A DNA stretch of 64,000 nucleotides from Owenia fusiformis. Lineage: Eukaryota; Annelida; Polychaeta; Sabellida; Oweniidae. Of the stretch, positions 3,601 to 46,137 are shown piece after piece (positions within the stretch are counted from its first letter, which is position 1; each line of letters begins with the position of its first letter). The stretch spans positions 8,020,366-8,084,365 of the forward strand of contig CAIIXF020000008.1 of assembly GCA_903813345.2 (NCBI GenBank), read 5' to 3'. The translations under genes and the position numbers were made by a program. The notes beneath the pieces were generated by a model. It saw only the letters and a program-made list of their open reading frames with translations. It did not search any database and was not told where the DNA came from.

Positions 3601-6600
3601 GCGTGCGTTTAGGTCAACATAAAATGATTTAGTCAGAACAATGTTTATGAATATTATTCCGACATCAATCTCCTGTTGCTTACTTGCTTGCTCGCTTCCT
3701 CCCTTCCTTGCTTCTGTGCTTCCTTCCTTCCTTGCTTCCTTCCTCGCTTCCTCACATCCTTCCTTCGTCGCTTCCTTCCATCCTTGCTTCCTTCCTTCCT
3801 CGCTTTCTTCCTTCTTTGCTTCCTTGCTTCATTCCTTCCTTGCTTCCTCACTTCATTCCTTCGCTTCCTCCCTTCCTTCCTTCCTCACTTCCCTCCTTTC
3901 TTTCTTGCTCCCTTCCTTGCTTCCCTCCTCGCTTCCTTCCTCGCTTCCTTCCTTCCTCCCTTCCTTGCTTCCTCGCATTTTTGCATCCTTCCTTCCTCGC
4001 TTCCTTCTGTCCATCCTTGCTTCCTTCCTTCCTTTCTTGCATCCTCCCTTCCTCGCTTCCTCCCTTCCTTGCTTCCTCACTTCCTTCCTTCCTCGCTTCG
4101 TTCCTTCCTTGCTTCCTCGCTTACTTCCTTCCTCGCATCCTTCCTTCCTTGCTTCCTCCTTTCCTTGCTTCCTCCCTTCCTTGCTTCTTTCCCTCCTTGC
4201 TTCCTCGCTTCCTTCCTTCCCGGCTTCCTTCCTTCCTTGCTTCTTTCCTTCCTAGCTTCCTACCTTCCTTTCTTCCTCGCCTCTTCTTTTCTTGCTTCCT
4301 TCCTTCTTTGCTTCCTTCCTTCCTCGGATCTTTCCTTTCTCGCTTGCTTCCCACCTTGCTTCCTTCCTTCCTTCCTCGCTTCATTCCTTCCTTGCTTCCT
4401 CGCCACTCTCTTTCATCGCTTTCTTCCTTCCCTCCTTGCTTCCTCGCCTCTTCTTTTCTTGCTTCCTTCCTTCCTTGCTTCCTCGCTTCCTTCCGTCCTC
4501 GCATCTTTCCTTCCTCGCTTCCTTCCTACCTTGCTTCCTTCCTTCCTTGCTTCCTCGCTTCCTTCCTTCCTTCCTCGCTTCCCTCTTTCCTTCCATGCTT
4601 TTTTCCTTCCTCGCTCCCTTTCCTCCTTCTTTGTTTCCTCGCTTTCTTCATAAATTTCTTCCTCACTTCCTTTCCTCCTTCCTTCCTTGCTTCATTCCTT
4701 CCTTCCATGCTTCCTCGCTTGCTTTCTTCCTTGCTTCCTCGCTTCCTTGCTTCCTTCCTTCCTCGATTCCTTCCTTCCTCACTTCCCTCTTTCATTCCTT
4801 GCTTCCTTCCTTCCTCGCTTCCTTTTTTCCTCCTTCCTTGCACCCTCGATTCCTTCGTTTTTTCCTCGCGTCCTTCCTTTTTTGCTTCATTCCTTCCTTG
4901 CTTCATCGCTTCCTCCCTCGCTTCCTTCTCTACTCCTTCCTTGCTTCCTCGCTTTCTTCTTTCCTTGCATCCTCGATTCCTTCCTTCCTCACTTGCATCC
5001 TCCCTTCCTTGCTTCCTCACTTCCTTCTTTCCTCCTTCCTTGCTTCCTCGTTTCCTTCATTCTTTCCTCGCGTTGTTCTTTTGTCGCTTCATTCCTTCCT
5101 TGCTTCCTTCCTTCCTTGCTTTCTCGCCTTCTTCCTTACTTACTTCCTTCCTTGCTTTTTTCCTTCCCTCCTTTCTTGTGTCTTTGCTTGCTTCCTTCCT
5201 TCCTTGATACATCGTTTCCTTCCTTCTTTGCTTCCTGGCTTCCTTTCTTCCTCGTTCCCTTCCTTGCTTCCTTCCTTGCTTCCTTCCTTGAAGGAAAGAT
5301 AGAAGAAAACAATTTACAAAAGATCGAACCCACGCACGCAAGAACGTAGTTACAAACGAACGCACGAATGAACGCACGCACGAACGAACACACAAACGAA
5401 CGCAAAAAGAACGAACAGCTAGACGAACGCACGCATGAATGGACGGTTGAACGAAAGCACGCACGGACGAACGGACGGTTAGACGGACGAACCCACGAAC
5501 GAAAGGGCAGTCAGACGAAAGCAAGCACAAACGGACGGTCAGACGAACGCATGCGCACACAAACGGACGGACAATCGCACGAACGGATGCACGCACGAAC
5601 GAACGAATGGTCGGATGAACGCACGCATGAACGAACGGACCGTCGGACGAACGCACGCACGAACGAACGGTCGGTCGAATGCACGCACGAATGAACGGTC
5701 GGACAAAGAGACCAATGAAATATATGTGTCCTCAGAAGTATAATCCTTGGAATAGTTAATTATCTAGAATGTACATTAAACTCCGAAATGCACAAAGTCT
5801 ATTTACATATAAAAATTTGATCATGCCGCTGACAGATGGATTAGACTGCCTGAAGTTGAAGAAGAAATATTTGTGATGTTGCCATAGAATGATATATTAT
5901 GTGACTGTCATTAATACGTTATTTGCACATTCGTGTACGTTCATATAAAGAAGCTCACTATATTCATGGAATAATGATGAAGCTTTCCTCGTGATCGAAG
6001 CGGGTAGTCGTGAAATTTGCTCGTGTTTTCAGCGGGGTCTCCTCATGTTTTCAGCGGGGCCTCCTCATTTTTTCAGCGGGGCCACTGGAACACCTTTAAT
6101 CATGTATTTCGACCCCCATGGCAGGTGTCATTGTCCAGTAACTTATCAATACAGACCATCTTGATCCGATATTTATTATGGAGTATGTAAATCGTATTTA
6201 TTGCCTTTATTTTAACGATAAAGGTAATATATGAGCAGTAAATTATGCAAACGTGCATGTTGACGCCCCTTTCCTTCATGCAAGTAAAAAATAATCATTT
6301 TTCATGTCATTTTTTGTCAAATATATCTGTTTTCAAAGTTTTGCCGGAGTATCAAAGAACGGTAATAAGTATTTTCATCCTTTTGGTTCATTTTCCAAAG
6401 TTATACAAATAAACAGGACTATGCTCGCGATTTCAGCGGGAACTTGCTCGCGACTTTTCAATCATAACGGGGCTTTAGATACTACCCGTGTATATATTCT
6501 TATTCATGGTCTCTCAATAGGACAAATTTTATGTAAACTTCAAAGTCATAATATGTTTTTTCCCACACCTTTGTTGAAGTAGACATCACTTACTTTATAT

Positions 6601-13940: not shown

Positions 13941-14636
13941 TATCATTTTTATAGTCAGGTTACCAAGATGATATCTTTCCTACTGTATCTAGCATATAGC
14001 TTATGTTGTGTTTTACCGTGTATTTACAGCCAGTATAACAAATAATGGTATAACAAAAATGTGTCTTCTGCGCATGTTGAAACTTTTCACTCAATACTTA
14101 ACTTCACTTTGGGTTGAATCGATTGTCTCTCAAACCACAGACTAATGCCTCATTTAAAAGATCCGAGAAGACTTTATCTATACTGAAAACCTAGGATCCC
14201 AGAATGGTTGAGTATGCTGTCTGTCCTCTCTCTCTTTAGTTTCAAATGGATATTTTTTTTGATTGCCAACCTTTTGACAGCAAAATGCTCTGCTGCAAAT
14301 GGTTTAATACCTTTGCATTTCTGCACTTTGTTTCAGGGGCATGTTTCAGGGGTTGATAATTATCCTGGGCATGAACACAGACTGATGAGCATTGCTCCAA
14401 AAAATGTATAGTAAGTATTACTAGGTCTTAAACTAAATTCAAAATTGTTAACAAAATGTTTTCTAAATATTCACAATAAATCTCCCTCAGCAAAATTGTT
14501 TAATGAAAGGATGTAGTTTCTTGTATCTCTTGTGATGGATCCTTCTTTACTTTAGACAACAGTTTAACGAAGGGTAAAAGAACAAACTTGATTGGACATA
14601 TTTCCACCTTGAATTTCACTAAGTATTGTTCAGAAT
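13941..14636. repeat. Uninterrupted copy of a locally duplicated segment
   Basis: 13941-14410 matches 15866-16320, and 14405-14636 matches 21135-21358. The second copy is therefore the same segment split by about 4.8 kb. The right part equals the 3' flank of synthetase gene 2 and similarity ends at the position of that gene's stop codon. On the plus strand a short frame after a TTTCAG (GHVSGVDNYPGHEHRLMSIA) is shared with the other copy. I do not recognise it and it may be a fragment of another gene. Confidence 0.8.
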
Positions 14637-15570: not shown

Positions 15571-15868
15571 TCCCAACGAACGAAGTTCGGTAGGGATATA
15601 GTGAAGCCCTCCGTCCGTCAGTAAGTCTGTCCATCCATCCGTCCGGAAGATAACTCAAATATTAGTTGACGGATTTTCTTCATATTTGGTGGAAAGATGT
15701 ATATTGATGAATAGTTTTATGCAAAAAAATTTTTTTCAAGATGGCCGCCGCTTTAAAAATGACGGGACTTTTTCGCAAAAATCATAAATTTTTCATTTTA
15801 AACCAAAGTAATTAATATTACTGTTTGAAATTTTGGTAGTATATTCGCAACATCTATCTATTTCACAT
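15571..15868. repeat. Dispersed repeat, head end
   Basis: Starts ATCCCAACGAACGAAGTTCG, followed by TCCGTCC microsatellite units, then the block shared with positions 1-215. The abrupt stop at 15868 against the duplicated segment shows truncation. The same family is present at 31776-32632. Confidence 0.75.
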
Positions 15869-16328
15869 AGTCAGGTTACCAAGATGATATCTTTCCTACT
15901 GTATCTAGCATATAGCTTATGTTGTGTTTTACCGTGTATTTACAGCCAGTATAACAAATAATGGTATAACAAAAATGTGTCTTCTGTGCATGTTGAAACT
16001 TTTCACTCAATACTTAACTTTACTTCGGGTTGAAATGATAGTCTCTCAAATCAGAGACTAATGCCTCATTTAAAAGATCCGAGAAGACTTTATCTATACT
16101 GAAAACCTAGGATCCCAGAATGGTTGAGTATGCTGTCTGTCCTCTCTCTTTATATTTTAAATGGATATTTTTTGATTGCCAACTTTCCTGACAGCAAAAT
16201 GCTGCAAATGGTTTAATACCTTTGCATTTCTGCACTTTGTTTCAGGGGCATGTTCCAGGGGTTGATAATTATCCTGGGCATCCACACAGACTAATGAGTA
16301 TTGCTCCAAAAGATGTAATAGTTAGGCT
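15866..16328. repeat. Left part of the interrupted duplicate segment
   Basis: Matches 13941-14410. The plus-strand frame after a TTTCAG acceptor-like site (from 16249) reads GHVPGVDNYPGHPHRLMSIA, then PKDVIVRLNHLKNPPNNSFY, and ends at TGA at 16408-16410 inside the inverted arm that follows. Its partner at 14337 stops earlier. The product is unknown and the coding status doubtful. Confidence 0.7.
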
Positions 16329-18364
16329 GAATCACTTGAAAAACCCTCCCAATAATTCTTTTTATGATAGAAGCACCAACATTGGTACAAGTGTAGCTTA
16401 TTGTAATTGAAAAAAATTGGCTCGAGGCAGCAAGTGATCCGGAGCCTCGTTTTGGAAAAAATTCAAAATGGCCGCCCGTCTATTTGTGATTTTGCCGATT
16501 TCTATCAAAATCTCAAGATCCTCTAACATATTAATGAAAACTGCATAGAAACCTCAAGAATTGGCTTTGAAGTGAATCTTTATGATGAACTGACATTTAA
16601 CTTGAGTTTCAAATTTAAAACGGCGTAAAACAAGGGTCAGTATTATGACCTGTACTATTAAGTTCATAAATGACATATATTCATCAAAAATAGTTTAACC
16701 AAATACTGAGTACTTACATAATATTGGATAATAAGATCTCTTACTTCTACTGAACAACTTGTATAAGAGAATATATTCAGCCACATATCCAAAATAAGAG
16801 TGTTATTGTTACAGTTCTAGTTAGATGGTGCTACAATGCGAAAATTTCAACGCTGGGGCAATTTATGTTTGATAAATTGTCGCAATTTATGGTTGATAAA
16901 TTGTCTATGTTTTACATTTTTGATCACCATCTTTCTCAAATCTCAAATATTTTATCCTTTATTGTTACTCTCACTAATCAGTGCAAAGCCCACTGCACTT
17001 ACAAAGGTCTGTGCATTTTGCCCAGGCAGCTTTTTTACATGAACAATACTAAGGACGACACCCCTTGCTGCATTGACACTTTATGAGTTCTCTGCATGCT
17101 ATTGACGCTTGCTGAAGAGTAGACCAAAGTGGAATCACATGATCACCATCATCTTCCAGCCAAACTTCAAATAATCCTGGACACCACTTGGGCGAGGATC
17201 CAGTATTTGGCCCCAAACAATCCCTCCTGTGAAGGCCGATCTCCTAATATGCTGCTCCAAAGCTGCCTTAGTCGGAGGTATCTTGTCAATCTGTCTTCCC
17301 TTCTTGGTGAAAAGATATTTTCTGGTTGAGTTAATATCAGTTGTTGAACTTGTCCTGTCATAGAGAATAATGACAAAACGTTCCAATAGAGATAGAACTT
17401 CTTCTGCTATGTGGTGTGGGTTTTGTTTTAAAGCGAGGAATGCTTCTGTTACTTCTGGATATTTATTCCATACTGTCCAACATTGTTTTTTCCATGGCCA
17501 AAGAATGACGATGTGCTATCACACCAAGTAAATGCATGGAAAACAGGGAGACATTCAGATTTGGTAGGTCCAAGAGCTCTTGCCAACTCATGAGCAGACA
17601 AATACCTATAGTTTTTCCCAGTTCCAAATGCAACCCATACACTGTATGCTAATACCTAGTTAGGCAGAGGCAGCTACAGCAAGGACCACTATATAAGTAT
17701 CATTGCATCTGATAAGTATTCTGGCAAACCCTCTTCTAGCCATATGGGCAATGTGGACAAACATTTTGGTATCTTTTTCTTTGTGAGAACATGGCTCCAA
17801 GTCATTTGTATCACTAATTGCAGGATTGCAAATCATCTTCTCACCAATGGTGGTCACAATCTGTTTATTTGCATCTAATGGAAGACTTGATAGTTTGTAG
17901 GCTAAAATACCAAACAACTGTTGCTTGTTGAAGTCATCTCTCAAGTAAGACTGCCAGTTTCTAGGCACAGTGTTTCCAAGATATGTGTAGGTCATCCTTC
18001 TGTCACCTTTCCCACACTTCTGTCATGTCATCGTCTTCAGGCTCCTTGTCAGGTACTCATCCCAAATTATATCGAGGCGATCAACATGTTGCAGCTGACC
18101 TTGGATGTAGGGAAGGAAAACATCAGTGGCATAATCCTCAAAGGTCCTTGCTGTTGTTGGTTTTAGAAGGTGTACTGAACATGCACCATCTATTATTTCA
18201 GCAACGACAGGCCTATCTGTTTCCCTAGGGACAATATCCACCATGCAGTCAAGTAGCTCTGATTTGTCACCATTTCTGAGGACACCATACTTTGCCAGTG
18301 AAGGTGGATACTCCTGGTTCTCATGCATGAAAAAATCATCAAGATCAATGTTTCTTGTCTGGCA

Positions 18365-19154
18365 CTGTGCTTTCATTAACGCCGTCCCATAATGGAGAGG
18401 ACCCGGTTTTTATTATAGGGACCCCAAACAATGAAAATGAGGGGTCACTTGGACGCAGTGCAGGTCATATCAAAAAATCATCTCTGGATGAATGGATTGA
18501 TAAAGATCTTACCTTCAGTCTTTTATTTGGTCAAAATCCGCTAAATAAACGAAGGATATTCTATTTCTAAAAGAAATAAAATTATCTTTTGGACTTTCTT
18601 TCCCGGAAGTTGATTTCCGATCAATATAGTATGAGGTATGTGATAGGACAATCACTAGTAGTTGATTTCCGAGCGGTAATCGGTACGAGTCCTATGATTG
18701 GCCGTGATTATTAATCGCGCATGCGTCTTGATAATTTTGACTAATCAAATTGCTGGATTTGTTGCGCATGCGCAAAAAACTGAACCAAAGAATTGAACCT
18801 CACGGAGATTGCTCCTAATCAAACTTTCTGAGCGATCAAAATCAATAGCAAATTGCTTTGAAATACGCGAAGAAAAACGGTATTTAATGGTTGAATATTA
18901 GTAACCTCTTTCAAATGAAGGTATCTGCATCATTTAATGACCTACTAGACGTGTGCAGAACACTGATCTGGGCCAAAAAATAACAAAACTGATGCAAACG
19001 TTTCATCAATTTTTTTTCGTTCAGTGCAAAAATGTGACATTGAATTCCCGGGAACCTTTTTTCATGCGGACGCACTTTTTTGAGGGGGGACGCAATTTTG
19101 GAAAATCAATCCGTCCCAGGGACGCACTTTTGGACAAGCCTACTGAAAGCACTG
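18365..19154. mobile_element. DNA transposon insertion inside FEN/PIN-like copy 1
   Basis: 790 bp with 11-bp inverted ends CTGTGCTTTCA / CAGTGCTTTCA (one mismatch) and a 6-bp direct repeat CTGGCA on both sides (18359-18364 and 19155-19160). Removing it with one repeat copy restores LYITCQTRNIDLDDFF, colinear with [16 protein letters not shown] in copy 2. No transposase frame seen. Confidence 0.85.
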
Positions 19155-20291
19155 CTGGCATGTGATGTATAATTTGGAGAATAAATCACAGTCATTTCTC
19201 ATTGAGATTTCTGATTTGTTCTTACTTATGGGTATTTTGCTGCTAAACATTGCGAGCTTGTGGCATTTTATGGGTGTATCCAATGGTTCAGTTCTCTCCA
19301 CAAGACGTTCAGTTGTATACTTAGTGAAGCTTTGGTTGCCAATGTCTTCTATACTTCTGATGGTGTCACTTACTGATACATTTACAACATCCTTTGTGTC
19401 AATACATCTTGTTAATACATCTTCACCTGACACAAGGAATGGATTGCCTAGTTTATCAATAGTAGTCACAACAGCAAATACATCATCTCTTGATTTCTGT
19501 TGGATGCTTGCTGTTTGCTCGTGGTGGCTAAAGTCTTCTTGGCTTTCATGTCTTCTATACTTGAGACTTCTTCAAATTCTTTGATGATCTGGGATATTGC
19601 AGGACCTATCATCCATCGTTTCAGTGCAGTAGGATTCTCTGTTATTCCTATAGCCCCACCAGAACCCTTAATCAGATTCAGAGCATTATTTTGCACATGG
19701 GCCTGGTCTATAGGGATGGTAGGGAATGAACTGGGTGTCTTCTGAACTGTAAAAGTGACCTTCATTGAAACGCTGATACAGGTCAGGGTGAGTTGTCTCC
19801 AATTGGACCATGTCCCTTAGGTGTATTGGGAACCATCTGGAATAGTGTGTATGATCCAATGTAAAATAAAAACAGGGCATCATCTTGGTCAAAGCAGATA
19901 TGTAGAGTTGCCTCTCTCAGGGATCTAACAAAGATCATAAGCAGCATTTCAAGGCGCCGTGTTATAGCCCAGTATTTGAAATGGGGGGAATTATCTTCCC
20001 CTTCCCTTTTCCATTCTTCAAAGGATAGGGGGGCTACATCACTGAGTTCGCCAACAGCTAGGTATATGTTGAAAGTTTTCTTAATTAGGATGTGGATTGC
20101 TGCCAACGTAATTAAACGTGCTCTTCGAGTCTTGATTATATGGCTTCCCTTTAGGAAGGACTCTGCAGTACCAACTGATGCTGTATTTGACTGAACAATT
20201 CGATTTACCCAACCGCTGTCTGTCAGCCAATCACCAATCACCTTCTGGAATGCCATTTCTATATGGAGACCTCCAAACATGATCAAGTATT

Positions 20292-20522
20292 TGAGCCTGG
20301 CCATTGGAAAACCGGCCTTATCACAAAAATACAGAGCCAAAAATGTGCCCAAGATTAAGAGGAAAATGTGCTAAATTCAAATCCCACTTTTTGGTCTATA
20401 TATGCAAGGAAAAATTGTTAAGACATAAGCCATGGCTCATTTGAAAGGTCTCTTTGTGTTAAACAAAAAATCAGAATACTGAAAAAAGCTATAATAAGAC
20501 CACTTTTCCTGTGGCCTGGCTC
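20292..20522. mobile_element. MITE inside FEN/PIN-like copy 1
   Basis: Inverted ends of about 30 bp (TGAGCCTGGCCATTGGAAAA / TGAGCCAGGCCACAGGAAAA). Excision with loss of a 2-bp duplication restores GEDKYLIMFGG. A partial relative lies at 10252-10397. Confidence 0.85.
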
Positions 20523-21226
20523 ATTTATCTTCCCCATGTGTATCAGGGTATATCCATTGAATGGTTTTCAGGGAAGCAAACAATGGTTGGTCAGCCGCAA
20601 GAACTGGTATTTGACCAGGATTTACTATATGTATGTCACGTTTGACTGTGTCCATACCATGTTTTAACATGGCTAGAGATTTTTTCCAAAATATAAGATA
20701 TTTAAAATCCCTTCAGTGCAGAGTCTATTCAGCATTTATTCTCAATCATATGTGTGACTCTCATATTGATATGTATAATTATGAGTAACTCAATAAAAGC
20801 TTATAAAATAGAACATGGCTTAATACTGAACCTTGCTGAACACCCGTTTTAATAGTTAAATATATTGTAAAGTAGTTCCTTTATCACAAGCAACTGTCTG
20901 GAATTCCCTTAAACAAATACAATTGGTTTAGAGCTAAAATACAACATTAATTCAAAGATAATTCAATTTTTTTCTTAAAAATCTATATGTATTGGCGGCC
21001 ATCTTGGTTTTTTCAGAACGAGGCTCCGGATCACTTGCTGCCTCGAGCCAATTTTTTTCAATTGCCTTCAGTTACACTTGTACCAATTTTGGTGCTTCTA
21101 TCATAAAAAGAATTATTGTAAGATGATTAGGCTTAGCTATAAGTATTACTAGGATCTTAAACAAAATCCAAAATTCCTAACAAAATGTTTGTAAATATTC
21201 TCAATAAATCTCCCTCAGCAAATTTG

Positions 21227-27372: not shown

Positions 27373-30300
27373 TCATAATTTAGATTTCATTCTGTCTCTA
27401 ATCATCTGTTTTAAGGTCCTTCGAAGAATTTTTCCACTTGGTGATTTTGGTATTTCGCTAAGGAACTCCACGCCACCTCTTAACCTTTTGTGTGGTGCAA
27501 CTGATTCTGAAAGGAAATTAGTAAGAGCATGATAAAACCATAAATAGTCCAAAAATAAATTAATTATGAGATCATACTGAACCATGAGGCTAAAACTGAT
27601 TGGAATGTGGTCTGATAAGCTTATAACTTCAGTAATACAGTTAAAGTGACATCTTTATGTTATTTCATACTCTATCATCACATGTAGAGCCAGAATCAGA
27701 GATATACATAATATAAAGGATGACAATATTGCAAGCAATATAAGTTACCCTTATGGACAAGAATGTGTGGATCCCCCAAATAATAAATATCGATGTCAAC
27801 ATTTAAAGAAAAAAAAGTATGACAAGGAATTAAATGATGAGCCAAAAATATTCTGATGTTTGTAAACATTGTAAGTTAATCATTATATCTGATTCTGCCT
27901 TTTAAAGTGCTCCCAAACTACAAAATTGGTTTAAGGATTGAGGTTAATTTGTATTAGAGTATTAAAAATATCTACACAAATGTTATAAATAATTCAGTAC
28001 TATATCATATGACAAAGAGTTAAATGAATGAAATTAATTCTCAAAGATAATCCACCCATGGAATGATATTGGTGTCAGTAATAAAGGTGTAGGTTTCTTA
28101 TAAGGAAATTAGTCCAAGATATAGGCCATAAAACATTTGTATTAAACCTTGCAAATGAAACATCTTATAAATAAACCCATACATCCGAGCGCTCTTAGGC
28201 CTGAATATGCAAGACTAAATGAGAAAACTAAGACAGCAATGAAAAAACAGTAAAAACAGTAAAAGTCTGGAACACCTATGACTGCAGAATCAGCAATATC
28301 TGGATGTGTTAACAACAAACCTTCTAACTCTGCTGGTGCAACCTAGGGTATGAATTGTATATTAAGGCTTTTTACACTTTTCTGTTAGTGTTAAAGTGTC
28401 TGTAGAATAGAATCTAGCAGCTCATAAACAATTAAGATGGATCATGGCAAAAATAATAAGAAAGTGACATTTTGATAGGTTAATTTGGTATTTAAGTCAC
28501 AGTCCTTTTAGGTTATGAAGAAATCAACAATGAAATATTTAAGCATGAGTACCGAAGGGAGAGGGCCAAAAACCTAGCTATAAAAGCAAATATAAAACAT
28601 ACCTGAAATCCTTTGTATTTCACAAGTTCCTTGAGGCGATCTACCACATAGAAGTGTCCATTGTGATCATAGTGTCCTATATCACCTACAATAAATGACT
28701 GATGTTATATCAACAATTCATTTAAGGGAATGAGAAAAATGACTACATTGACCTGTCAGGCAGATTTGACTGAGCATGAACTGATTTTCAGACCAACTTA
28801 CTTCATTTTTTGGTCATTTTTATGCTCCAATCATAAGAATTTGGTGAACATTAATCAAGTTTTAATTTACTAATGGAACATCCCAGGTCCTTTTTAATAA
28901 GTATAATATTACATTTCAGAACATTTAAGGGGGGTGATTGCATCTTTGATCTTTTTAACAGGAATACTATGACATTAATCAACTCCTAAATCATTCCATT
29001 TCAGCAGGATTTGAACCTGACACCTTGATCTTAACATATTGTATATTTTCTTAGTGTGCCATTTTATTTTTTCTCATTTCATGTGATCTGTTTTTAATCT
29101 CTTTAATTACATTTTCAAGTTTATGAAAATCATGTATATTTACAGTATTGTTATTTATAAAATAATATTTTATCATGTCATCATATGAAAGGCCAATCAA
29201 ATGAACAAGAAAAGCTCGTGAACATTATATACATTAGCAGGCCCGTAAGACACTTTTCCCTAAGGGGGGTGCGGTTTTTACTAAAGAGAATATAAAATTG
29301 TAATTTTTTTGCCGCGTAAATCAAATCGCGTAAGTCAGAGGGGGGTGTCGGTTACTCCCTATATTGGTTTGGAATTAACTAATGCAACTTCCAAATGTTC
29401 CAATTGTTTTGTGGGGGGGGGGTGTGAGGAGTGGTCCACTCCCCATAGAAAAATTTACAGTTTTGAGATGCTATTTGGTGCTTTCTGGGCACTTTCAAAG
29501 TGTATGAGTCAATAAGATTGATGTGAATTTTTTTTCAAATTTTTTTAGGGTTGTCAAAGAGGATGAAGTGGGGTGGGGTGCCAGAGGGGGAGCAAGGGGC
29601 TGTCCCCCAGAAACATTGACCATATCAAGGTACTATTTGATGATGTCTGAGACAATACATGAAATTCAGAATATTTTCTTTTGTTTTGTGGGGTATGTGA
29701 GGGGTGGCTAACTCTCCTAGAAATTTTACAATTAAAAGATGATATTTGGTGCTTCTGGGCACATTTAAAGTGTATTAGTTAATAAAAACATTGAAAAACA
29801 ATCACAATTTTTTTATCTTATCTTATCTTTTTCAATTTTTTTTTGGGGGGGGCTACCAGAGGGGGAGGTGGAGTGGGGATGCTAGAGGGCGAGTAAGTGT
29901 TAGTCTCCCAGAATCATTCACTATATCAAGGAGCTATTTGATGATGTCTTGGCAATTTAAAAGTGTCTGAGGCAATACATAAAACAGATTCAGAACTTTT
30001 CCATTGTTTTGTTTGGGGTGTGAGGGGTGGCCCACTCCCCCTAGAAAATTTTACAATTTTACGACGCTATTTGGTGCTTTCTGAGCACTTTCAAAGTGTA
30101 TGAGTCAATTAAAGAATTTGAAAAAATCACAATTTTTATCCAATTTTTTTTTTGGGGGGGGGTCAAGGGGGGGGGTGACAGAGGGGGAGGTGGGGTGGGG
30201 ATGCAAGTGCAAGATGCAAGAGGGGGAGCAAGTATTAGTCCCCCAGAAACACTAACTGTATCAAGGAGCTATTTGATAATGTCTGGGCAATTTAAAAGTG

Positions 30301-33300
30301 TCTGAGACAATACATAAAACAAATTCAGAACTTTTCCATTGTTTTGTTTGGGGTGTGAGGGGTGGCCCACTCCCCCTAGAAAATTTTGCAATTTTACGAC
30401 ACTATTTGGTGCTTTCTGGACACTTTCAAAGTGCATGATTCAATTAAAGAATTTGAGAAAATCACAATTTTTATCCAATTTTTTTTGAGGGGGGAGGGGG
30501 GGGGGGGTACCAGAGGGGGAGGTGGGGTGGGGATGCAAGTGCAAGATGCAAGAGGGGGAGCAAGTGTTAGTCCCCCAGAAACACTAACTATATCAAGGAG
30601 CTATTTGATGATGTCTGGGCACTTTAAAAGTGTCTTAGACAAAACACTAAAATAAATTTAGAACTTTTCCATTGTTTTGTGGGGGTGTGAGGGGTGGCCA
30701 ATACCCCTAGAAAATTTTACAATTTTAAGATGCTATTTGGTGCTTTCTGGGTACTTTCAAAGTGTATGAGTCAATGAAAATTTTTTTTTTTTTCAAATTT
30801 TTTTTTTCAAATTTTTTTTGGGGGGTGACAAAGGGGGGTGCGGTCGCACCCATCGCACCCCCCCCCCATCTGACGGCCCTGATTAGTGCCCATGTCTCAC
30901 TACATTATATACCATAGATGTAGATTTAGTACCTGTATGCAGCCAACCTTCTTCGTCAATTGTGTTAGCAGTTGCCTCATAATTGTTCAGATATCCCTTC
31001 ATAACTTGTGGGCCTCTTACACACACCTCACCATCCATATGTGGACCAAGTGCAACACCAGTGTCTAAGTCAATAACCTAAAGGAAAGATAATGGGGTAT
31101 TGTTCATGCTTTGTTTGTCACTATTTATCCAACATTGCCTCTTTTATTTGGTATTATTGTTGAGCATTGTCAATTGTCTTTTCAATTACTTTCTGGTTCA
31201 TATTAGTTAATTTCTATGTTATAAGGCTTAAATGTAGAATGTGATAATTTGAGAATTAGAGACTGAGTCAATCATATCTTACTTTACTTTCTGTGTTTGG
31301 TACACATATTCCTGCTGCCCCATATTTCCAGCCTATCTTAGGAGAAATATGGCTTGTTGGAGATAGCTCAGTCATTCCATAGCCTGAAATCATAGTAAAT
31401 AAATTTTACCTATACATAACCATAATAACTAAATGAATATTCTAAGTTCAGGTGACAAAATGGACCTGCAACCTGTAGGTTTAGATCTTTGATTTCTATT
31501 GCCTATAGTTTTTGAACAAGGTCATCATCCCAGAATGCTCAGACAAATTCACAACCACAAATTTACAACCACATAATGTTGATGTGAAATACTTGATTTG
31601 TTCACTATGAATCAATTGACTTATGGTTTAAATAGTCTTTGTTTTCTTAATTTGTAGATATTGCCCTATTGAATTCTGTTTTGGAATGAAATCTTCAATG
31701 TGGAACCATTGCACTTTGATTTTAGTATGTATTACATGTACCTTTTATTTATTTTAATAAATTAAAGTAATTTTTATCCCACCGAACGAAGTTCGAGGGG
31801 GATATAGGAAAGCCTTTCATTCACCTAGGGACAAAAAGCTATGCTGAAGAAGAGTTTTTCAAGATGGCTGCTGAATTTCAAAATGGTGGCCGTTTTTCTT
31901 AAAAAACATAATCTTGAATAACTCAAATACCAGTGAATGGATTTGGTTCAAATTCTATATGGTGATGCCTAGAGACAAAGTAGATTTGTTCAAGAAAGAA
32001 TTTTCAAGATGGCGGCTGAATTTCAAAATGACCGCCATTTTTAATAAAAAATGTAATCTTTGATAACTCAAATAGTAGTTGAAGGATTTGGTTCAAATTT
32101 TAAATGCTGATGCCTAGGGATAAAGGAACTACGCTGAAGAAGAGATTTTTAGAATGGCTGCTAAATACCAAAATGGTGGCTGATCTTTGATAATTCAAAT
32201 ACCAGTTGAATAATTTGGTCTAAATTTTATATGTTGATGCTCAGGGACAAAGAAGCTACCCCGAAGAAGAGATTCAAAATGGCTGCTAAATATCAAAATG
32301 GCAGCCGTAATCTTTGATAACTCAAATAGCAGTGAATGAATTTTTTTGAAATGTTATATGCTGATGCATAGGGACACAGTAGCTCTGTTCGAGAACAATT
32401 TTCAAAATGGCTGCTGAATTTCAAAATGACTGCCATTTTTGTAAAAAATGAATGTAATCTTTGATAACTCAAATGCTAATTGATGGATATGGTTTACATT
32501 TTATATGTTGATGCCTAGGGACAAACAAGCTCTGCTCAAGAAGGAATTTTCAAGATGGCCACTAATAAGCAAAATACGTTTTGTTCAGTGGGATTTGTTA
32601 CTCCGTGTTTTCTAGTTATCTCAGTGTCACAGTGGTTTAATGTATTTACTTTTTCTTCTTGTTGCCCTAGCATTCTCTTATTTGTACTTTCAGATTCCTA
32701 CCTTGTCTAAGTTTGCATTTTAATCTTGCTGTAACTTCCTCCTGCAGTTCCTTACTCAATGGGGCAGCCCCACAGAATATTTCCTTTACACTAGAGAGTT
32801 CATATTTATCCATGCGGGGGTCCTTTGCCAGGAATAAAGCCATGGGTGGAACTACAAAGAGTCTTGTTGCCTGAATATGAATTAAGGAAATGTAAGTATG
32901 TTAACCTAATCTAAATAAATAGTGTCATCATTTTTTGCCTGAGGTGAAATGTAAGGATTATTTTTAGTTGAACATTCACATTATTCTTTATGGCATTCTC
33001 TAAGGATGTTACAATAACAAAAAATCGATTAGAAAAGATTCATGCACAATATTTTCACAAATGGATTTCTGCCAACCAGATGTCTGCTTTTAGGTTAAAA
33101 ATTAATGTTAGGATACCACAATTAGGTCAAGAAGAAAAACTGAGTTTTTGCTGATGTGTGAATCAAGTACAGTATAAGTGTGGCAATTTAGAAGGTATCA
33201 TATGTCAGTGGGAAAAAAATATAAATTAAGCCAATATTTTCTAGGTGAAAGCACTCTATGTAATTGTAATTTTAAGGCAGAAATAAAGCAAATAATCATA

Positions 33301-36300: not shown

Positions 36301-39300
36301 TGAAATAATTGATTGCATATAGTTCAATCCTTATGCTAATGGGTATTCAATAAATGTGTAGTAGTATAGTATTGTTATGATAAGCAAGGTGACAGTGTTG
36401 TGAGTTTCTTTGGATTTTATCTTTACAAAGCGTTAATTTTTCTTTATCATTAGATTATATTAAGAGAGGGGTTTAATTGTTTTGATTCCATCATTTTAAG
36501 ATGAAACTGTAAAATAATGTGATAAAATTCCCTTATTGTTTTAGATACACAATCTTTTGTCATCCCATTAAATGAAGTTTGGGGGATAAAGAGAATGAGT
36601 TCATATGTCCTACTACTAGAAATGAGCACTGCATTTCTAAATGATTAATTTTGAGCATATCAAAATGATTTCTTCATATTTTGCTAAATATGAATAGTAG
36701 GCTATATAAATGGTTATAGCTACATCAAGAAGGAATATTCCTTTAATATAATGTGTCCATATGTTTGGACTTCATCCTTATGTCTAAAGTTATTCATTTG
36801 TTTGAGATTTGTTGTGTCTGAATGTCAGACTTATTCTGGATTGACCAGTTTGTAAGATGACAGATATGGAGACCAAATGCGATTATTGCACAGATTCCAA
36901 TTGACAGATAGTGATATTAAAGGCTTTAGACTTTCTAACTACTGTAGCTTCTACTGTTGTCAGAATCATCCTTCTATAAGTATAAGCTAGCAACAAATTA
37001 AGGCATATTTCTTTTCTTCATAAATATTAGATATTTAAATTCACAGTTGTTGTCTTAAGTTGCTGAGGGTTTGTCCCGCTCTAGGCTTTTAAGCAACTCT
37101 CTGCCAATAAATCATGAATAAGTCTAGCAATTCTGGTACTAGATTGTGATATTGGCTCTCAAATGGAGGGGGAAGGGGGGGGGTGTTAGACATTATTTAG
37201 TTTGACATTAGATAATTTTTTGCATTGTATAGGCTATATCTTTCTTATGACAATTTTACACTTAGAGTTTTTGGTCCTCTCCCTGTGGCACTTGTGCTTA
37301 GATATCAGTATTTTAGGAGTTAGATTTAAACTCAGGTTGTTCCTGAAAAAAGCAATACTGTACCTTATTAAAGGTCAACATCAATGTATTACAGGAGACT
37401 TTCAATAGAATAGGAAATAAAGACTAAGATTACTTAATAAGAGATGTTAAAGGGTGACACATATCGTTTAGCAAATCAACGCTTGATTCTGGTGTTGATC
37501 ACTGTTTAGTATAAAAGCCCTGATCCCGGAATAATACTCAATGGTTCACAGGCTCGAGGTTGTTGTGTCAACACCTCTAACTGTTATATAGCATGAGTAT
37601 ATTATTGATCGTCACACGTTTATAAAAGGGAGATTTTTATCAATTTCACATTTATGGGTGAAGTTTCGGGATCTTCTATTTGTCTATAATAAGGAAAAAT
37701 TGACATCTAAATTTCCCCATAACGTATTGTTACACAGCTTGGCATATGAAATATTTTCCAAATGAAACAAAGCAGTTCTAATACAAGGTTTTATATTGGC
37801 TGTTGCACATGTATTCTTTGAACAATCACTCTCTCAATAATGTTTTCAGAATCATTATAAACGGATTCCTTTATCTCCAAGAAAATTTAAATTAACTGAA
37901 TTTTACAAAACTCCCCTTATTTCAAAACACAGTAAATAAGATCAAAATCTAAAAGTATAACCAGTCATGAAAACAAACCCCCAATATCCCAAACTATGAT
38001 ATACACCCCCATTTCAAAATCTATTTCACAAAGCTATGTACAGGGTGTCAAAAAAATATGTTCTCTCCTCTTAGATTTAACTGACCCACAAAATGTGGCA
38101 TACCTTTTATGGCATTATATCTGAATTTTTCTTTGGCATACTAAAACTAGGCTTCACGGAGCTACTACTACAAGAAGTTCCAGATGATTAACTCAAACAG
38201 ATGCACCTTTAAGCACAAAGTTCATACTTTTAAAATTTGGGGGAGAACATATTTATCTGACACCCTGTATACAATTCATTAATAATTTAATAAATAAAAT
38301 CAACAACCAACATTTGAATCAATGCACAACTGTATGGTATACCTGCTGTGTATAATGGATTTGCTGTAGTGGCAATTCCTCCGATGGCTATAACAGCAAA
38401 GTATGTGATAACCCATTCTGGACAGTTGGGGCTATAGAGACACAGAACATCCTTTTTCTTGAATCCAAGTTTTGTTAGGCCACTTCCAACTCGTTGGATT
38501 GCTTCAACAAGTTCATTGTATGTATACTTTGTACCTGATATTCCATCTACCTGAATGAGTAAATTCATGATTTTAATGCCTGGAAAGATTAATGGTGAAA
38601 ACATAGCAATGAAAAGTTGTTTCTATATACTATGACTGTGAAATACAATAGCCAAACCATTGGAATATTGCTTTTACTTTTTGTCCTAATGACACACTGT
38701 TAGAAAATCATGTATGTGAGTGGATCTGATCTGAAAATAATTTTGTCAGACACTTCATTATCAAAATCTCTAGTAAAAAATGATTATAGCTCTGGCAGAC
38801 TATTAGACATTTGCTGAATAAGGCTCTTTCATGACATTGTGATGTACATTTATATCCAGTAAGAATCATCATAATATTTGCCCCCTATTCATGAAAAACA
38901 TATTTAATCAACTGTTTAACAATGTAAGGTATAGATTAGTATTTTAATTTTATTATGATTTCTTGAGTTTTTATTCTCATGACTGAAGACGTGCATATTT
39001 TGTTGAGATGAAAACCCATTTGCCCAAAATTCAGATTGGCAAGAATTCATTTTACCTAATAGCGGGATAAATAGTGTAAAGTAATCGCCGTTTGCGGAAC
39101 AAATCGTGAAACTTTCCTCAAATGATCACTGATTGCTACTCTTTAAATAAAGCAACTGTGCCAAAAAATCGCTCCATAGGAACTGCCCTAATTTTACAAT
39201 TCTTACCCCCCCCCATGGTCACGGAGGGGGGGGTGCATAAAAAAATTTTGACACAATTTTTTTTACTAAATTATGCTTAAACTTCAAATTTAGTATCACC

Positions 39301-42300
39301 TTATCATGTTAAGAAGTTAATGTTGAACTAAAAATATGAAATACCATTGATTTTCAATTGCTATGTTAAAGGGTGGTGATGGGCGACGCCCACTTTTCTT
39401 GTATTGAATATTTTGCACCATATCACAGTTGCAGGAGTAAATCAAATAAGTGATATATGATTGTAAAATTACATCAATATCTAATGGTTCACATGACTAT
39501 TATTTTTCACCTTTTTCACTCTTAAAGGCTTGTTTTGAGTCACACCCATCTTTTAGACATACAGAAAAAATAGAAGATACGGTTTGACTTGTGGTTTTTT
39601 GGGCTTCCAAGGGCAGTAAGACTCACTTGCATCGTGTTGATATGCATTGGTTTTTGCAGCTACACTTTATGTGAGCCTGGCAAGCGTCTGATGCTTGAGG
39701 TAAAGTCGTCCACCTTGGTATCCATTTGATGTCTTCAAATATCCAGCCCCACTCAGCTGGGGAAGGAACTTGAGGATTCGCTGTAAGTGCTTGCCCCCAA
39801 ATAAATACAGCTTGGTATATGACTCTCTTCATATGCTGTAACAGGGCTTCTGATGTTGGAGGAATGTGTGATATTATTGAAGTCCTCTTTGTGAACATCT
39901 CCTTCCTCGCAGCATTGATTGATGTTTCATTGCTTGTTTTGTTGTAGACCAGAATAATAAACCGCTGTAAAATAAGCATGGCATCAAGCAGGGTATTGGG
40001 TCGTATGGAGATTTCTTTTAATACTGTAGTCAATTCAGGGTAGGTACTCCATTGGTTCCAGGCTGATGTCTTAAACTTTCCATTAAATCCTGATGTGGTG
40101 TCACATCCAGTCATAGCATGGAATATTGGGAAACATATAGCTTTCTGAGGAGTCATTTCATGGGCAATTTCGTGGGCTGGAAGGTATCTATAGGACTTTC
40201 CCTTGCCAAAGGCGAGCCAGATTTGAATGTTAAGTTGTGCAGCTATACTAACTGCCAGAACAACAATGTCTGAATCAACTGTTCTAATCATCATTTTTGT
40301 GAAGCCTTATTCATTACATCATATATGTGCAGAAAGATTCAGGAATCTGCCTTTTCATGGGATGATGGTGAAATCTCAGAAACATGCTGCTTAGGATATG
40401 CCTCTGCAGTATTCCCAATTGTTGTAATCAGGATTTTATATTCTCTGGTACTGGAATGGCTGAGACATTTGATGCAAGGAAAGTAAAGAGATCACTTTTG
40501 TTGTCATCCGAGCATAGAAATTCTGGCCAATTCCCTGGCAATTTGTTTACTGGATAAACTATTTGACGCTTTCCAGATCCACGCTTTTTTCTTGTTGAAG
40601 ATTTGAGACTATTTGGTATATATTAATCCCATACAATATCAAGTCTTTGTACTTTATTAAGTTGATATGCAACATACTTATTAAATATGTCATCTGAAAA
40701 TTGTAGGAAGGTTCTTGCTTCTTGAGTTTTCAGCAGGTGGACTATTATGGCACCATCAAGAAACATGGCTTCAACATCTGGTGTATTGATCTCTCTATTT
40801 GTAACAAGGTCTTCCACTGGTTTTAAGATATCTGCTTTGAGTCCAGTCTTGATTGTGCCATCTTGTGAAAGGGATGGAGGGAATGCCTGGTTCTCATGTC
40901 AGAAAAATTCATCTAAGTTGCCGTCTCTATTCTGGCACGCTATGTATAGTTGTGAAAATAGGGCAGTGTCATTTTTCAAGCTTGCTAGCTTTGAACTTGA
41001 GTTAGATTTCTTCTTTTGTTGTTTGAAAATCTTGAAATTGTTTCTCTTGATAGGGTCTGTGATGGCTTTTGATCTTTCAATAATTCTCTCCTTTATATAT
41101 ACTTCACATTGACTTTTCCCTTTTTCCTCAATTGTGTTCAATGTGTCAACAGCACTGTTTGACATTACATCTTTAGTATCAAGTGTCCAAAGTTCCTTTG
41201 ATGTTGGAATAAAGGGGTTTCCTAAATCATTGATAACCTCAGTAAGGGAATTGACATCTTTCTTGAAACTGGTTTGATAACTAACACTGTGCTCATAGTT
41301 TGCAAGGACTTCATCATCATTATCCTTCATCTCATCCTCAAACTCAGTTAACATTATTGCCATCTTTGGACCACCGACCATCCACTTCTGTAATGCGGTT
41401 AGATTGTCTAAACCCCACAGCTCCACCCTCACTTTTGATCACACTATTATTTAGCTCATGGGCTTGGTAATTGGAGTACCATGTACCAGAATTTGAATAT
41501 AGGCAACCCTGTTTCTTAACTCTGCTGGGTATCTATCCAAGATTCAAAATCAAGAGACAAAATTGAATTGATTGGCAATCTACCTGAAATCTACCCAAGT
41601 AACAAGAACTGTATTGTATTGATTGGCAATCTACCTGAAATCTACCCAAGTAACAAGACCCCCCCCCCCCCGAACACACACAACACTCCTTCTTAATTCA
41701 AAACTGCCCTTATTAGATCAACAATATCATATTTTCAAACATAACTCAGTTCAGCAAAATAAGCAGAACTACTTCTTGATTATTTTTATCAATCATTTAG
41801 GTCAAAATCATACAAGGGTTCATCCAAAAGTCTTGGACTACCTGCTCTAATTTTGTTGGTTTTTGATAAAATTACTTTAAACTTTCCAATAATAAAGTCC
41901 AACAGTCTAACTACTTTGTGTATTAATTTCATGGAGAAAGGATATATTTTATGTAGTTTTCTAGATAGTTGTTAATATAGGGACCTTGCCACCCGGAACA
42001 GTATTCGCACATGGCAACTTTCAGCCTCAAATGTTGCCGCCATTTCACTTGTTTCTGCTGAAATGCAGAACATGAAAGAAATCAAAGTAGAACAAAGAAA
42101 ACGACAAGATATTTTCACTATTATTGAACTTGAGCAGCTACCATATGCACGATACAGCCTAGCCTCCGTGTGATTTTCCCTCTTTTCTCCAAGTTGAAAA
42201 GGAGGGTTGAAAGAAAATATTTTTTACTCATTGGATGAGATTTAGAGTGGCACTCCAGCAGCATTTGTATAACATAAGCAATGGCGGTTTCATAAATGTC

Positions 42301-44340
42301 TTCCATTCATTGGTAAAGCGGTATGAAAAATGTGTTCAAATTCGTGGAAAATATGTTGAAAAGTAGGTCTTAATACGTGAATATGATGATGGCAGATGAC
42401 ACTCAGACTGAAAATTGGAAATTCTCTCATATCATGACTGATGTTAGGTTGCGCATCTGCACCTAAAGTATTTGCCATATTATAACAGTTGTGACGTAAT
42501 TTGCTATATTTAAATACCATTCTGTGTGGCCGGGACCCAGTATTAAGAATTATTTGGAAAAGTAGCTAAAATATATCATTTTCTGTTGAAACTTATACAC
42601 AAAGTTGTTAAGATGTTGATCTTTATTATCTGAAAATGTCATGTAATTATATTAGAAAATAGCAAAGTTAGAGCGGGGCGTCCAAGACTTTTGGATCACC
42701 CCTCGTACTTACAAAAACTGATCTAGATTCTATCCTAAACGTTGATGCTCATTGTCACTCAAGCATGACCTTGTCAAAAACAAGAAGTGATTTTGGTAGT
42801 TGTTATAGTAAGAAAGATACACTTTTTGCTAGATTATTCTGTATTTGGATTCAAGTCACTCATCAGATGTCACATAGTTTGTCAAACTTTATTTTCAATT
42901 AAAATTACAATGTTTATCATGTCGAAGTATATGCCACTCTGGCAAAGAGATAAAAGGAATTATTAAAGATAAGTAGATATTCATTTTACTAAAAATTGAC
43001 TGCAATCTCAATCATTATCATGTGTATCATGGTAGAAGGTCCCAACATTGAAATTATGATACTATTTAATGATCATCCTAAAATGTTATGGCTGGTCATT
43101 AAGCCTACCCCTATAAATTTTAGGGGTAGGGGTAAAAATTGCGAAAAGTCGATAAAAAATGGAGGAAATTTTCAGCACAGTTGCTTTTTACACCCAGGAA
43201 GGTTGCCTGGTCATATCTGGAAAGTTCCACGATTTGTTCCGTTTTCGGCGCTTTCACCCTTTTTTATGTCACTATTTATCTCGCTATAAATCAATGACTT
43301 TTGGAGAAATGTTATTTCATCACCTATGATGATTAGGCATTTCTTTAAGATTATATAATCACTTCTCATAACAGTCTACGCTCACATCATTCATATTTAC
43401 CATTCATATTTTTTATTTAGTTTCATTCATGGATCACTATTTTCCTTGAAGAATTGATAAATATTCCTTCAATGTTAACCACAAAATTAGCACTAGGCCT
43501 ATGTTTGTCAAAAATATGAATGGATTACAACAGAGAGGCATCATAAGGCAGCAAGAGGTGAACAAAAGAACTGTCTCTAAGACAAATAATACCTTGTAAA
43601 AGCATGAAAGATACCAGGTAAAAGAGATAGCTGTCCCTTTAAAAAATCTGCCAGGAATGACCAAATGCTCATGAGCTTGGTGACCTCCATTAAGGCATTA
43701 ATTTTGTAAGTCAGCCAAGGGGATGAAGCAAATACCATATTGAAAGCTCAATATCATGGGTATAACCATCAATAGATGTAAATTCAGTCAGGAGTTGTAT
43801 AAAGAGACCCTTGAGTAAACCAAAACCAATACAGCCGTCCAAGCAGGGACAAATCTTGACTGATTTATGATTCACAGCCATGCAGGGATGAACGCATATC
43901 ACACAGAGAAAGATGAATCCGCTTGCCAAAGGCATGTCCAGATGAACCAATGCCTCAGTCAGTCCAAAGGGAACATATTTATGATTTATTGATATATCAA
44001 TTGAGAAAAATTAGCGGAACAATTCTTACTTCAAACTCAGCAATATTGCTCCATTGAAAAAGATGGACAGTGTATTTCAATTTTCTAGTTAGGAGTATCA
44101 TCTATGGTACACTTTACTAGATGATTAATATGGACTTAATGGTGTATTCTTATATATTTCAAGTCTTACAGGTTCTAACAGTGTGCTTAAAACTGGAAGA
44201 AATCTATTGAACTGACTTACCAAAGCTATATGTTCAGGAAACTCCTTTACTCTCTGAAAGACTCTTTCAACAAGTGACTGATTTTCAGGAATTGTGACAT
44301 CAGGATATGGACACTTCACTATGTTATTTGTATCTGCCAT
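27373..44340 (-). CDS. 4CL/luciferase-like acyl-CoA synthetase, gene 3 (exon 10 damaged)
   Basis: Third paralog. Exons in transcript order: 44221-44340, 38343-38550, 36052-36158, 35489-35694, 33819-33993, 32702-32870, 31283-31383, 30933-31077, 28603-28685, 28265-28342 (truncated), 27373-27506. Phases match gene 2; exon 5 is one codon shorter. An in-frame ATG lies 8 codons upstream (44364), but MADTNN at 44340 matches the paralogs. Motifs seen: [42 protein letters not shown] and terminal SKL. The second half of exon 10 (about 30 codons after GVPD in gene 2) is absent from the intron. A donor-like ATAG/GTGTTC at 28276/28275 would rejoin exon 11 in frame and give about 504 residues lacking part of the C-terminal domain. 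It is therefore either a shortened functional gene, a recent pseudogene, or a local assembly deletion. Introns carry at least six mobile elements. Confidence 0.87.
28265..28342 (-). other. Truncated exon 10 of synthetase gene 3
   Basis: The exon opens normally after an AG acceptor and encodes [20 protein letters not shown] followed by VIGVPD, matching gene 2 exon 10 (21723-21888). Similarity then stops. The next bases continue an open but unrelated hydrophobic frame until a TAA near 28143. Normal donor positions that would keep phase with exon 11 either form a stop at the junction or are absent, except the candidate at 28276/28275. No separate copy of the missing 88 bp is visible between 27507 and 28264. 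Confidence 0.8.
29238..30881. mobile_element. TIR element with five ~330-bp tandem units in intron 8 of gene 3
   Basis: Ends CAGGCCCGTAAG and inverse CAGGGCCGTCAG, flanked by ATTAG at 29233-29237 and 30882-30886. The interior repeats five times a unit marked by TGTGAGG(A/G)GTGG at 29423, 29696, 30019, 30354 and 30686 (spacings 273, 323, 335, 332), with G-runs and a G-rich GGGGGAGGTGGGGTGGGGATG block. The Gly-rich open frames here are repeats, not genes. Its edge lies 51 bp from the exon 8 donor of gene 3. Confidence 0.82.
31776..32632. repeat. Dispersed repeat with five tandem units in intron 6 of gene 3
   Basis: Head ATCCCACCGAACGAAGTTCG and inverse tail TTTTGTTCAGTGGGATTT. The interior units contain AAGATGGC(T/G)GCTGAATTTC and GATAACTCAAAT, with the latter at 31918, 32063, 32190, 32318 and 32464. 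Same family as 1-670 and 15571-15868. No ORF. Confidence 0.8.
34263..34953. repeat. Long foldback element in intron 4 of gene 3
   Basis: Arms of roughly 320 bp with about 85% identity are inverse copies. The outer edges read TATGGCAAGTGATTT and the segment TTTCACCATGAGTA occurs in both. The centre lies near 34600-34640. Non-coding. Confidence 0.85.
37450..37875 (+). repeat. Dispersed repeat, copy in intron 2 of gene 3 (holds an empty insertion site)
   Basis: An inverse copy of 45655-46073. Conserved blocks include TTATAAAAGGGAGATTTTTA and AATTTCCCCATAA. Its edge, GGGTGACACATATCG at 37447, is the intact form of the target cut by the element at 46074-53452. Confidence 0.85.
38039..38269. mobile_element. 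Mariner-type MITE next to exon 2 of gene 3
   Basis: TA-bounded, with inverted ends CAGGGTGTCAAAAAAATATG and CAGGGTGTCAGATAAATATG; 231 bp. Confidence 0.82.
39623..41490 (-). pseudogene. FEN1/XPG-I-like (PIN-fold) multicopy gene, copy 2 (5'-truncated, partly intact)
   Basis: Starts within the family near [18 protein letters not shown] (about 41470), then a frameshift, then a 177-residue frame (41432-40899) ending [19 protein letters not shown]. The TGA replaces one codon and the frame resumes as [10 protein letters not shown]. Further damage: a stop after DIVWD (40623) and frameshifts near 40440 and 40310. The last 223 residues (40294-39623) are open: D7 and D9 in [11 protein letters not shown], then TGCD with D65, then [19 protein letters not shown] and VWGQAL-like IWGQAL, ending in CKCSCKNQ-type cysteines (KCSCKNQC). 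In FEN1 the DxD pair and the later SD aspartate lie about 54 residues apart; here about 56-58. It is a passenger in intron 1 of synthetase gene 3, on the same strand. Confidence 0.75.
41568..41658. repeat. 51-bp tandem duplication
   Basis: TTGATTGGCAATCTACCTGA starts at 41568 and again at 41619. A poly-C run follows at about 41660. Confidence 0.85.
41811..42707. mobile_element. Mariner-type element in intron 1 of gene 3
   Basis: Bounded by TA. The ends CAAGGGTTCATCCAAAAGTC and inverse CGAGGGGTGATCCAAAAGTC, both running into TTGGAC, have the form of mariner terminal repeats. About 0.9 kb. Two short minus-strand frames inside (42121-42306, 42290-42520) show no transposase motif I can recognise. 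Confidence 0.78.
43105..43131. repeat. Short perfect hairpin
   Basis: CCTACCCCTA and its inverse TAGGGGTAGG are separated by a few AT bases. Function unknown. Confidence 0.7.
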
Positions 44341-45654: not shown

Positions 45655-46073
45655 CCGTTTATAATTATTCTGAAAACATTATTGATAGAGAGATAGTTCA
45701 GAGAATGCATATACAACAGCCAATATAAATCCTTGTATTAGAACTGCTATGTTTCATTTGGAGGATATTTCATAAGCCAAGCTGTGTTCTGATACATTAT
45801 GGGGAAATTTATAATGTCAATTTTTCCTTACTATACACAAGTAGAAGATCCTGAAACTTCACCCATAAATATGAAATTGATTTGTCAAAATAAAAATCTC
45901 CCTTTTATAAATGTGTGACGGTCTATATTATACTAATGCTATATAACAGTGAGAGGTGTTGACACAATGACCTTGAGCTGTGACCCCCATAGTATTATGC
46001 CGGGATCAGCTAGCCTTTTAACAGTGAGCTACACTAGAAACAATTGTTCGATTTACTAAACGATATGTGTCAC
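45655..46073 (-). repeat. Dispersed repeat, inverse copy of 37450-37875
   Basis: About 85% identity to the reverse complement of 37450-37875. It is cut at 46073, within TGTGTCAC, by the nest at 46074-53452, and its continuation CCTTTAA appears at 53461. Confidence 0.85.
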
Positions 46074-46137
46074 CCCGGGGGGTTCACTATATATAAACCT
46101 TGACGGGGATCCTCGGCGCATGTGGGGTACCTTTTTA

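Follow-up and report, generated by a model that had tools for sequence, protein, structure and literature searches.

A decayed, non-autonomous DNA transposon, probably of AcademX type, and its relatives in the annelid Owenia fusiformis

RESULTS

An element with terminal inverted repeats in a duplicated host segment

The analysis of a 64,000-nucleotide stretch of Owenia fusiformis DNA (hereafter the window; contig CAIIXF020000008.1, positions 8,020,366 to 8,084,365 of the forward strand) reveals a 4,821-bp element, F1, which has its gene on the minus strand and is bounded by terminal inverted repeats and an exact 3-bp target-site duplication (TSD). We read this block, with little doubt, as a decayed, non-autonomous AcademX-type DNA transposon of the cut-and-paste class. 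Its ends were set by other copies in the host genome, and the element and its surroundings are laid out as follows in window coordinates.

13951..14636, plus strand: unbroken host paralog of the insertion site
15867..16318, plus strand: left host flank, matching 13951-14415
16316..16318: left TSD copy, 3 bp, TAA
16319..21139, minus strand: F1 element, sharing its ends with the 13 other copies read, with an exact TSD in each
16319..16476, plus strand: left terminal inverted repeat, with TAGTTAGGCTGAATCA as its outer motif and an inner arm of 127 columns starting at 16350
20994..21139, minus strand: right terminal inverted repeat, with TAGCTAAGCCTAATCA (read inward) as its outer motif and an inner arm at 20994-21118
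21140..21142: right TSD copy, 3 bp, TAA
21140..21360, plus strand: right host flank, matching 14412-14636

The original prediction had described two inverse arms of about 125 bp, and these are indeed present at 16350-16476 and 20994-21118, with 90.6% identity over 127 columns (93% over the 111 nt of their ungapped part). The true ends at 16319 and 21139, as seen from copies elsewhere in the genome, lie outside these inner arms, and the terminal repeats are imperfect. The surrounding segment had likewise been said to exist unbroken nearby, and the two host flanks are continuous in 13951-14636, to which they align without interruption at 93.6% and 91.2%. At the insertion site, the unbroken paralog is 5 bp longer than the joined F1 flanks with a single TSD copy retained. 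Because L024, a locus with 74% identity on a different contig, aligns to the paralog without a gap at these 5 bp, the extra bases are probably ancestral and the paralog probably represents the uninterrupted site, a reading that so distant an outgroup does not make firm. An excision footprint at the paralog was considered and, given the same gapless alignment, was not favored.

F1 copies across the host genome

The 498-Mb assembly was searched with the left and right F1 ends, and 40 of 49 and 40 of 48 candidates, respectively, were scored, so that the counts are lower bounds. At least 23 left-type and at least 19 right-type ends were found, at least 16 of each lying in facing pairs 4-9 kb apart (pairing counted by hand). 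The possibility that the arms would occur mostly alone had been raised as a check on their nature, and this was not so, since only 7 of 23 left ends and 3 of 19 right ends were without a partner among the ends listed. Besides the window copy, we read 13 of the 15 listed pairs, giving 14 copies at different sites on eight contigs. All 14 contain remnants of one and the same gene (tblastn) and are flanked by exact TSDs, which measure 3 bp in 11 copies, 4 bp in two (L004 and L005), and 3 or 4 bp in one (L009); shifting the right end one base earlier gives a 4-bp TSD in 5 of the 11 (L001, L003, L008, L010, and L012). The TSD sequences are varied (e.g., TAA, TTA, TCA, CAA, CTT, and AGAA), and the flanks are not mirror images in the 14 copies, with 1 to 6 of 10 positions matching.

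Paired arms around gene remnants in every copy read, together with consistent 3-4-bp TSDs, bear out the proposal that the arms are true terminal repeats of a mobile unit. A second copy of the local host sequence does lie 1.9 kb away, as might be expected if local repeat DNA had been duplicated in inverted orientation by chance or in assembly to give the arms, but the recurrence of the same ends and exact TSDs at 14 different sites refutes this explanation, to which we give next to no credence.

Gene remnants and damage in the window copy

Within the F1 element, coding homology was traced by tblastn to L019, one of seven long relatives (L014-L020) found in the host genome, and two nested insertions were delimited against the other copies.

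16980..18364, minus strand: coding remnants in several frames, matching L019 residues 495-953 (core end, FEN/XPG-like domain, and Cys-rich tail)
18370..19154: nested insertion of about 785 bp with a 10-bp overlap at its ends, only in the window copy and absent from the 13 other F1 copies read
19155..20304, minus strand: coding remnants in more than one frame, matching L019 residues 111-496 (with the GGxH motif at residue 121 and the conserved Glu at residue 244)
20293..20522: nested insertion of 230 bp whose ends are inverted, only in the window copy and absent from the 13 other F1 copies read
20524..20682, minus strand: coding remnant matching L019 residues 63-115, where the second conserved Asp lies (L019 D93)

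The remnant at 19155..20304 overlaps the nested 230-bp insertion at 20293-20304. The statement that the arms enclose a minus-strand gene copy, thus, holds as far as homology is concerned, but the gene itself is broken by frameshifts and by the two nested insertions. The window copy is also without approximately 456 bp that 11 of the 13 other copies have in full or nearly. This segment, which lies at about 1070-1524 in the element coordinates of L004 and is carried by most other F1 copies, sits inside the nuclease coding region and could be either a GT-AG intron (on the gene strand) or an insertion. Moreover, all of the 14 copies except the window copy and L009 share a one-base difference (12 of 14) that disrupts the frame within a conserved motif at about L019 residue 319, which suggests that F1 spread from an already broken source. 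A programmed frameshift was considered for this difference, and no typical slippery site was seen by eye; inheritance from a broken source is preferred.

Long relatives fuse a nuclease-like domain to a transposase-like core

Uninterrupted stop-to-stop frames of 1,602, 1,573, 1,526, and 1,435 residues were found in four loci, and L018, L019, and L020 have long frames in one or two pieces. In the four relatives with uninterrupted frames, the FEN-like part stands at the C-terminal end, as one domain of a far larger transposase-like protein. The FEN-like product had been put forward as a candidate mobility enzyme, and as a stand-alone enzyme it is not supported in that role.

In an alignment of the C-terminal domain of the seven relatives (A1, 485 columns), the sole invariant acidic residues are D9, D54, E151, D153, D177, D179, and D234. 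These seven follow the active-site order of FEN1, with FEN1 E158, E160, D179, D181, and D233 placed by comparison and D34 and D86 being the FEN1 active-site positions before them. The host comparison set comprised four loci matching Pfam XPG_I, in exon pieces that possibly include a few intron residues, and these were provisionally read as FEN1, XPG, EXO1, and GEN1, FEN1 being the sole label checked. Aligning the A1 domain with the FEN1-family exon pieces by hhalign gave P-values of 0.0024 (local) and 0.0004 (global), pairing E.D, D.D, G.D, and the next G/A motif, whereas two reversed controls gave 0.26 and 0.31 (local) and 0.75 and 0.76 (global). The domain resembles the FEN1/XPG/EXO1/GEN1 nucleases in the order of its seven acidic residues and in the G/A motif after the last of them, and it differs from these nucleases in giving no significant hidden Markov model match and in being fused to a transposase-like core within a mobile element.

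Four of the seven relatives (L014-L017) entered the alignment of the core (A2), where D8, D177, E360, and the H206 of a GGxH-type motif are invariant, and we take it as a predicted DDE-type transposase with D8, D177, and E360 as its triad. Cys/His motifs were noted by eye in the N-terminal parts of the long relatives, and a Cys-rich C-terminal tail is present in 5 of the 7 aligned relatives, with weak Pfam rows for TCR/CXC in 3 of the 7 (best E 0.045). A Pfam search with eight proteins at E up to 1 listed no helicase family and one weak AAA_22 row at 0.091. Viral contigs searched for relatives gave 10 pattern matches and none confirmed, and a search for prokaryotic relatives of the host FEN1-family exons gave 45 pattern matches, again with none confirmed.

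Sister families and a second related element in the window

Four further families, F2 to F5, were delimited around genes of this type. F2 comprises seven copies (L016, L025, L026, and four more); the element measures 6.43 kb, and its inverted repeats, of 521 bp, start TAGTGGAATGGG. L016, L025, and L026 are 99.6-99.7% identical, each with a 1,526-residue open frame, and the family looks young and recently active. These three copies lie as follows.

G000:C8:28981651-28988079: F2 copy L016
C1:31430899-31437327: F2 copy L025
C8:34479040-34485467: F2 copy L026

Six of the seven F2 copies have 3-bp TSDs. In the seventh (L035/L036, G000:C11:18485386-18485486 and 18491834-18491934), the left end is short by about 12 bp. 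F4 (L046 with L017; G000:C2, ends about 26424508 and 26431111) measures 6,604 bp and has a 3-bp TSD, a 1,435-residue stop-to-stop frame, and 674-bp inverted repeats that are 97.9% identical and start TAGTGCAGTCAGAATG, with TAG on both sides. A 4-bp TSD at first assigned to F4 (L017) was withdrawn as a mirror image within the long repeat, which continues past those points. F5 (L018 with L045) measures 7,570 bp, with a 30-bp inverted repeat (96.7%), a 3-bp TSD, and frames of 592 and 870 residues.

The remaining family, F3, is represented in the window itself.

39060..43286, minus strand: F3, second related element, 4,227 bp, ends TAGCGGGATAAATAGTG and TAGCGAGATAAATAGTG, TSD TAA
39626..41466, minus strand: F3 coding remnants in several frames, matching L019 residues 315-933 and including most of the 223-residue frame 39623-40294

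Two further F3 copies are 97-98% identical, and each of the three has its own 3-bp TSD. The end of F5 matches that of F3 at 17 of 20 positions, a score reached by none of 200 single-base shuffles (one strand scanned). In the end scan of the relatives, L015, L016, and L017 each gave 1 hit in 20 shuffles, which makes the scan weak evidence when taken alone. The 223-residue frame found nothing in phage records, Pfam, or PDB sequences. A larger inverted repeat surrounds F3 at 37452-37877 and 45642-46075, its pieces 88-96% alike and without a clear TSD by eye; this may be another transposon that hosts the F3 insertion.

Overall, 25 of the 26 elements with both ends read have an exact 3- or 4-bp TSD (F1 14/14, F2 6/7, F3 3/3, F4 1/1, and F5 1/1), and both ends start with TAG in these 25. 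This bears on whether a host gene, duplicated or captured, is simply carried along between the arms of a transposon unrelated to it, a hitchhiking reading to which the broken window copies and the N-terminal half not found in them lend some color. The same gene type stands between TAG-ended inverted repeats and TSDs in five families of differing terminal sequence, and its core carries conserved D, D, and E residues, which leaves hitchhiking highly improbable. Where the original prediction had left the gene family as either mobile or hitchhiking, the mobile unit stands, and the gene looks like the transposon’s own rather than a hitchhiker.

The missing N-terminal part and probable mobilization in trans

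N-terminal stretches of 465-640 residues, taken from six relatives (L014-L018 and L020), served as queries. They recovered one another’s loci in all 30 ordered pairs (E 1e-3 or better) and, with hits admitted up to E 1, matched none of the 14 F1 and three F3 elements. When the whole genome was searched with the N-terminal frame of L018, 35 matches were obtained, and none of them fell inside the 16 F1 pairs. The first conserved Asp of the core falls in this N-terminal part; in L018 it belongs to the motif at 498. Before L019 residue 315, the F3 elements show only a weak fragment (L019 residues 197-231, in two of three copies), and the F3 matches cover neither the second Asp (D93) nor the Glu (E244) of L019.

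Both window copies are, thus, broken and without an N-terminal match, and a full enzyme is not expected from either. Because the N-terminal part bearing the first conserved Asp was found in neither F1 nor F3, the two window families were probably moved, and F1 most likely spread, by an enzyme supplied in trans. If it is not incidental that F1 and F3 keep a FEN/XPG-like end without the transposase N-terminal part, the nuclease domain alone might serve the shortened elements or act on them, apart from the DDE core, in steps such as end processing or gap repair; we consider this very doubtful.

Other repeats in the window

An imperfect pyrimidine-rich tandem array of 1.6 kb at 3676-5289 yields long low-complexity frames. 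Further tandem arrays lie at 29878-30779 (335-bp units) and 46700-47405 (162-bp units).

DISCUSSION

Classification of the F1 element

An XPG nuclease and a Cys8 zinc finger (the latter by the Repbase description) belong to the transposon superfamily Academ. As described in PMC10045372, AcademH and AcademX both fall within this superfamily, with TSDs of 3 or 4 bp in AcademX and of 9 or 10 bp in AcademH, a difference tied to the encoded nuclease versus helicase. The literature on Academ includes Kapitonov and Jurka 2010 (cited in PMC4455052) and Kojima 2020 (cited in PMC10045372). Academ elements are reported to be long (mean 5,565 bp) and amplified in bivalves, with a few frames in so-called ringworms (PMC10294476).

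The window block is assigned to AcademX because its nuclease-like domain, the lack of any listed helicase, and its 3-4-bp TSDs correspond to the AcademX description, with which the present families also share a large protein, a transposase-like core, and terminal inverted repeats. The 3-4-bp TSD is missing only from the F2 copy with the shortened end; the nuclease is suggested by seven acidic columns invariant in 7 of 7 proteins and by the weak match to the host FEN1-family profile; and a DDD/E transposase of RNase H fold may be reflected in D8, D177, E360, and the GGxH-type motif, invariant in four proteins. On the other side, F1 and F3 show no N-terminal half, and the Cys-rich tail is absent from two of seven relatives. 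AcademH shares the superfamily with AcademX but is distinguished in PMC10045372 by a helicase and by TSDs of 9 or 10 bp, whereas none of our eight proteins has a listed helicase and the TSDs measure 3-4 bp.

The elements might alternatively belong to another DNA transposon superfamily, Kolobok or an unnamed one, with a nuclease domain. In Pfam, a single row passed E 0.01, that for DUF6589 (E 0.0019) with one of eight proteins; it lies below Pfam’s cut-off, and it could be taken in favor of such a placement. The TSDs are of varied sequence, unlike the TTAA-specific 4 bp of Kolobok (PMC9587614), and the pairing of a nuclease with a 3-4-bp TSD is the printed AcademX description (PMC10045372), so that we regard another superfamily as unlikely.

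Several points weigh against the AcademX assignment and the domain readings beneath it. Academ entered the comparison through its description and not through a named sequence. The nuclease domain and the core gave no significant match in Pfam or PDB sequences, where only chance-level rows appeared; the hhalign probability of the FEN1-family pairing was just 12-15%; and an AlphaFold model of the 223-residue frame was dropped as useless (mean predicted local distance difference test score 35.5). D11, D381, D430, and E434 are further invariant acidic residues in A2, so the choice of triad is our own reading. The stretches read around L014, L015, L019, and L020 contained no ends of the kind described. 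Finally, in the shortened F2 copy, a long direct duplication of host flank replaces the 3-bp TSD; this would fit an insertion finished by repair, and as a single case it proves nothing.

Under the AcademX assignment, F1 is a new family of an already known kind of transposon, its Academ membership resting on architecture and TSD as set against a described superfamily. The original prediction had called the gene family uncharacterized, and this does not hold, as PMC10045372 already describes AcademX elements that carry a nuclease and make TSDs of 3 or 4 bp.

Proposed mechanism and implications

From the domain arrangement, we propose that the DDE-like core would cut the element out at its terminal repeats and join it to the target with a 3-4-bp stagger, which repair would convert into the 3-4-bp target duplication. 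The fused FEN/XPG-like domain may assist when the element is excised or the gap is repaired, by processing flaps or the other strand.

The F1 element of the window is itself ordinary and decayed, and for further work the young F2 family has more to offer. Explaining an apparent uncharacterized nuclease gene as transposon coding sequence helps to avoid its annotation as a host DNA-repair gene. Moreover, with near-identical copies and an open 1,526-residue frame, F2 would allow the nuclease’s part in such transposition to be tested.

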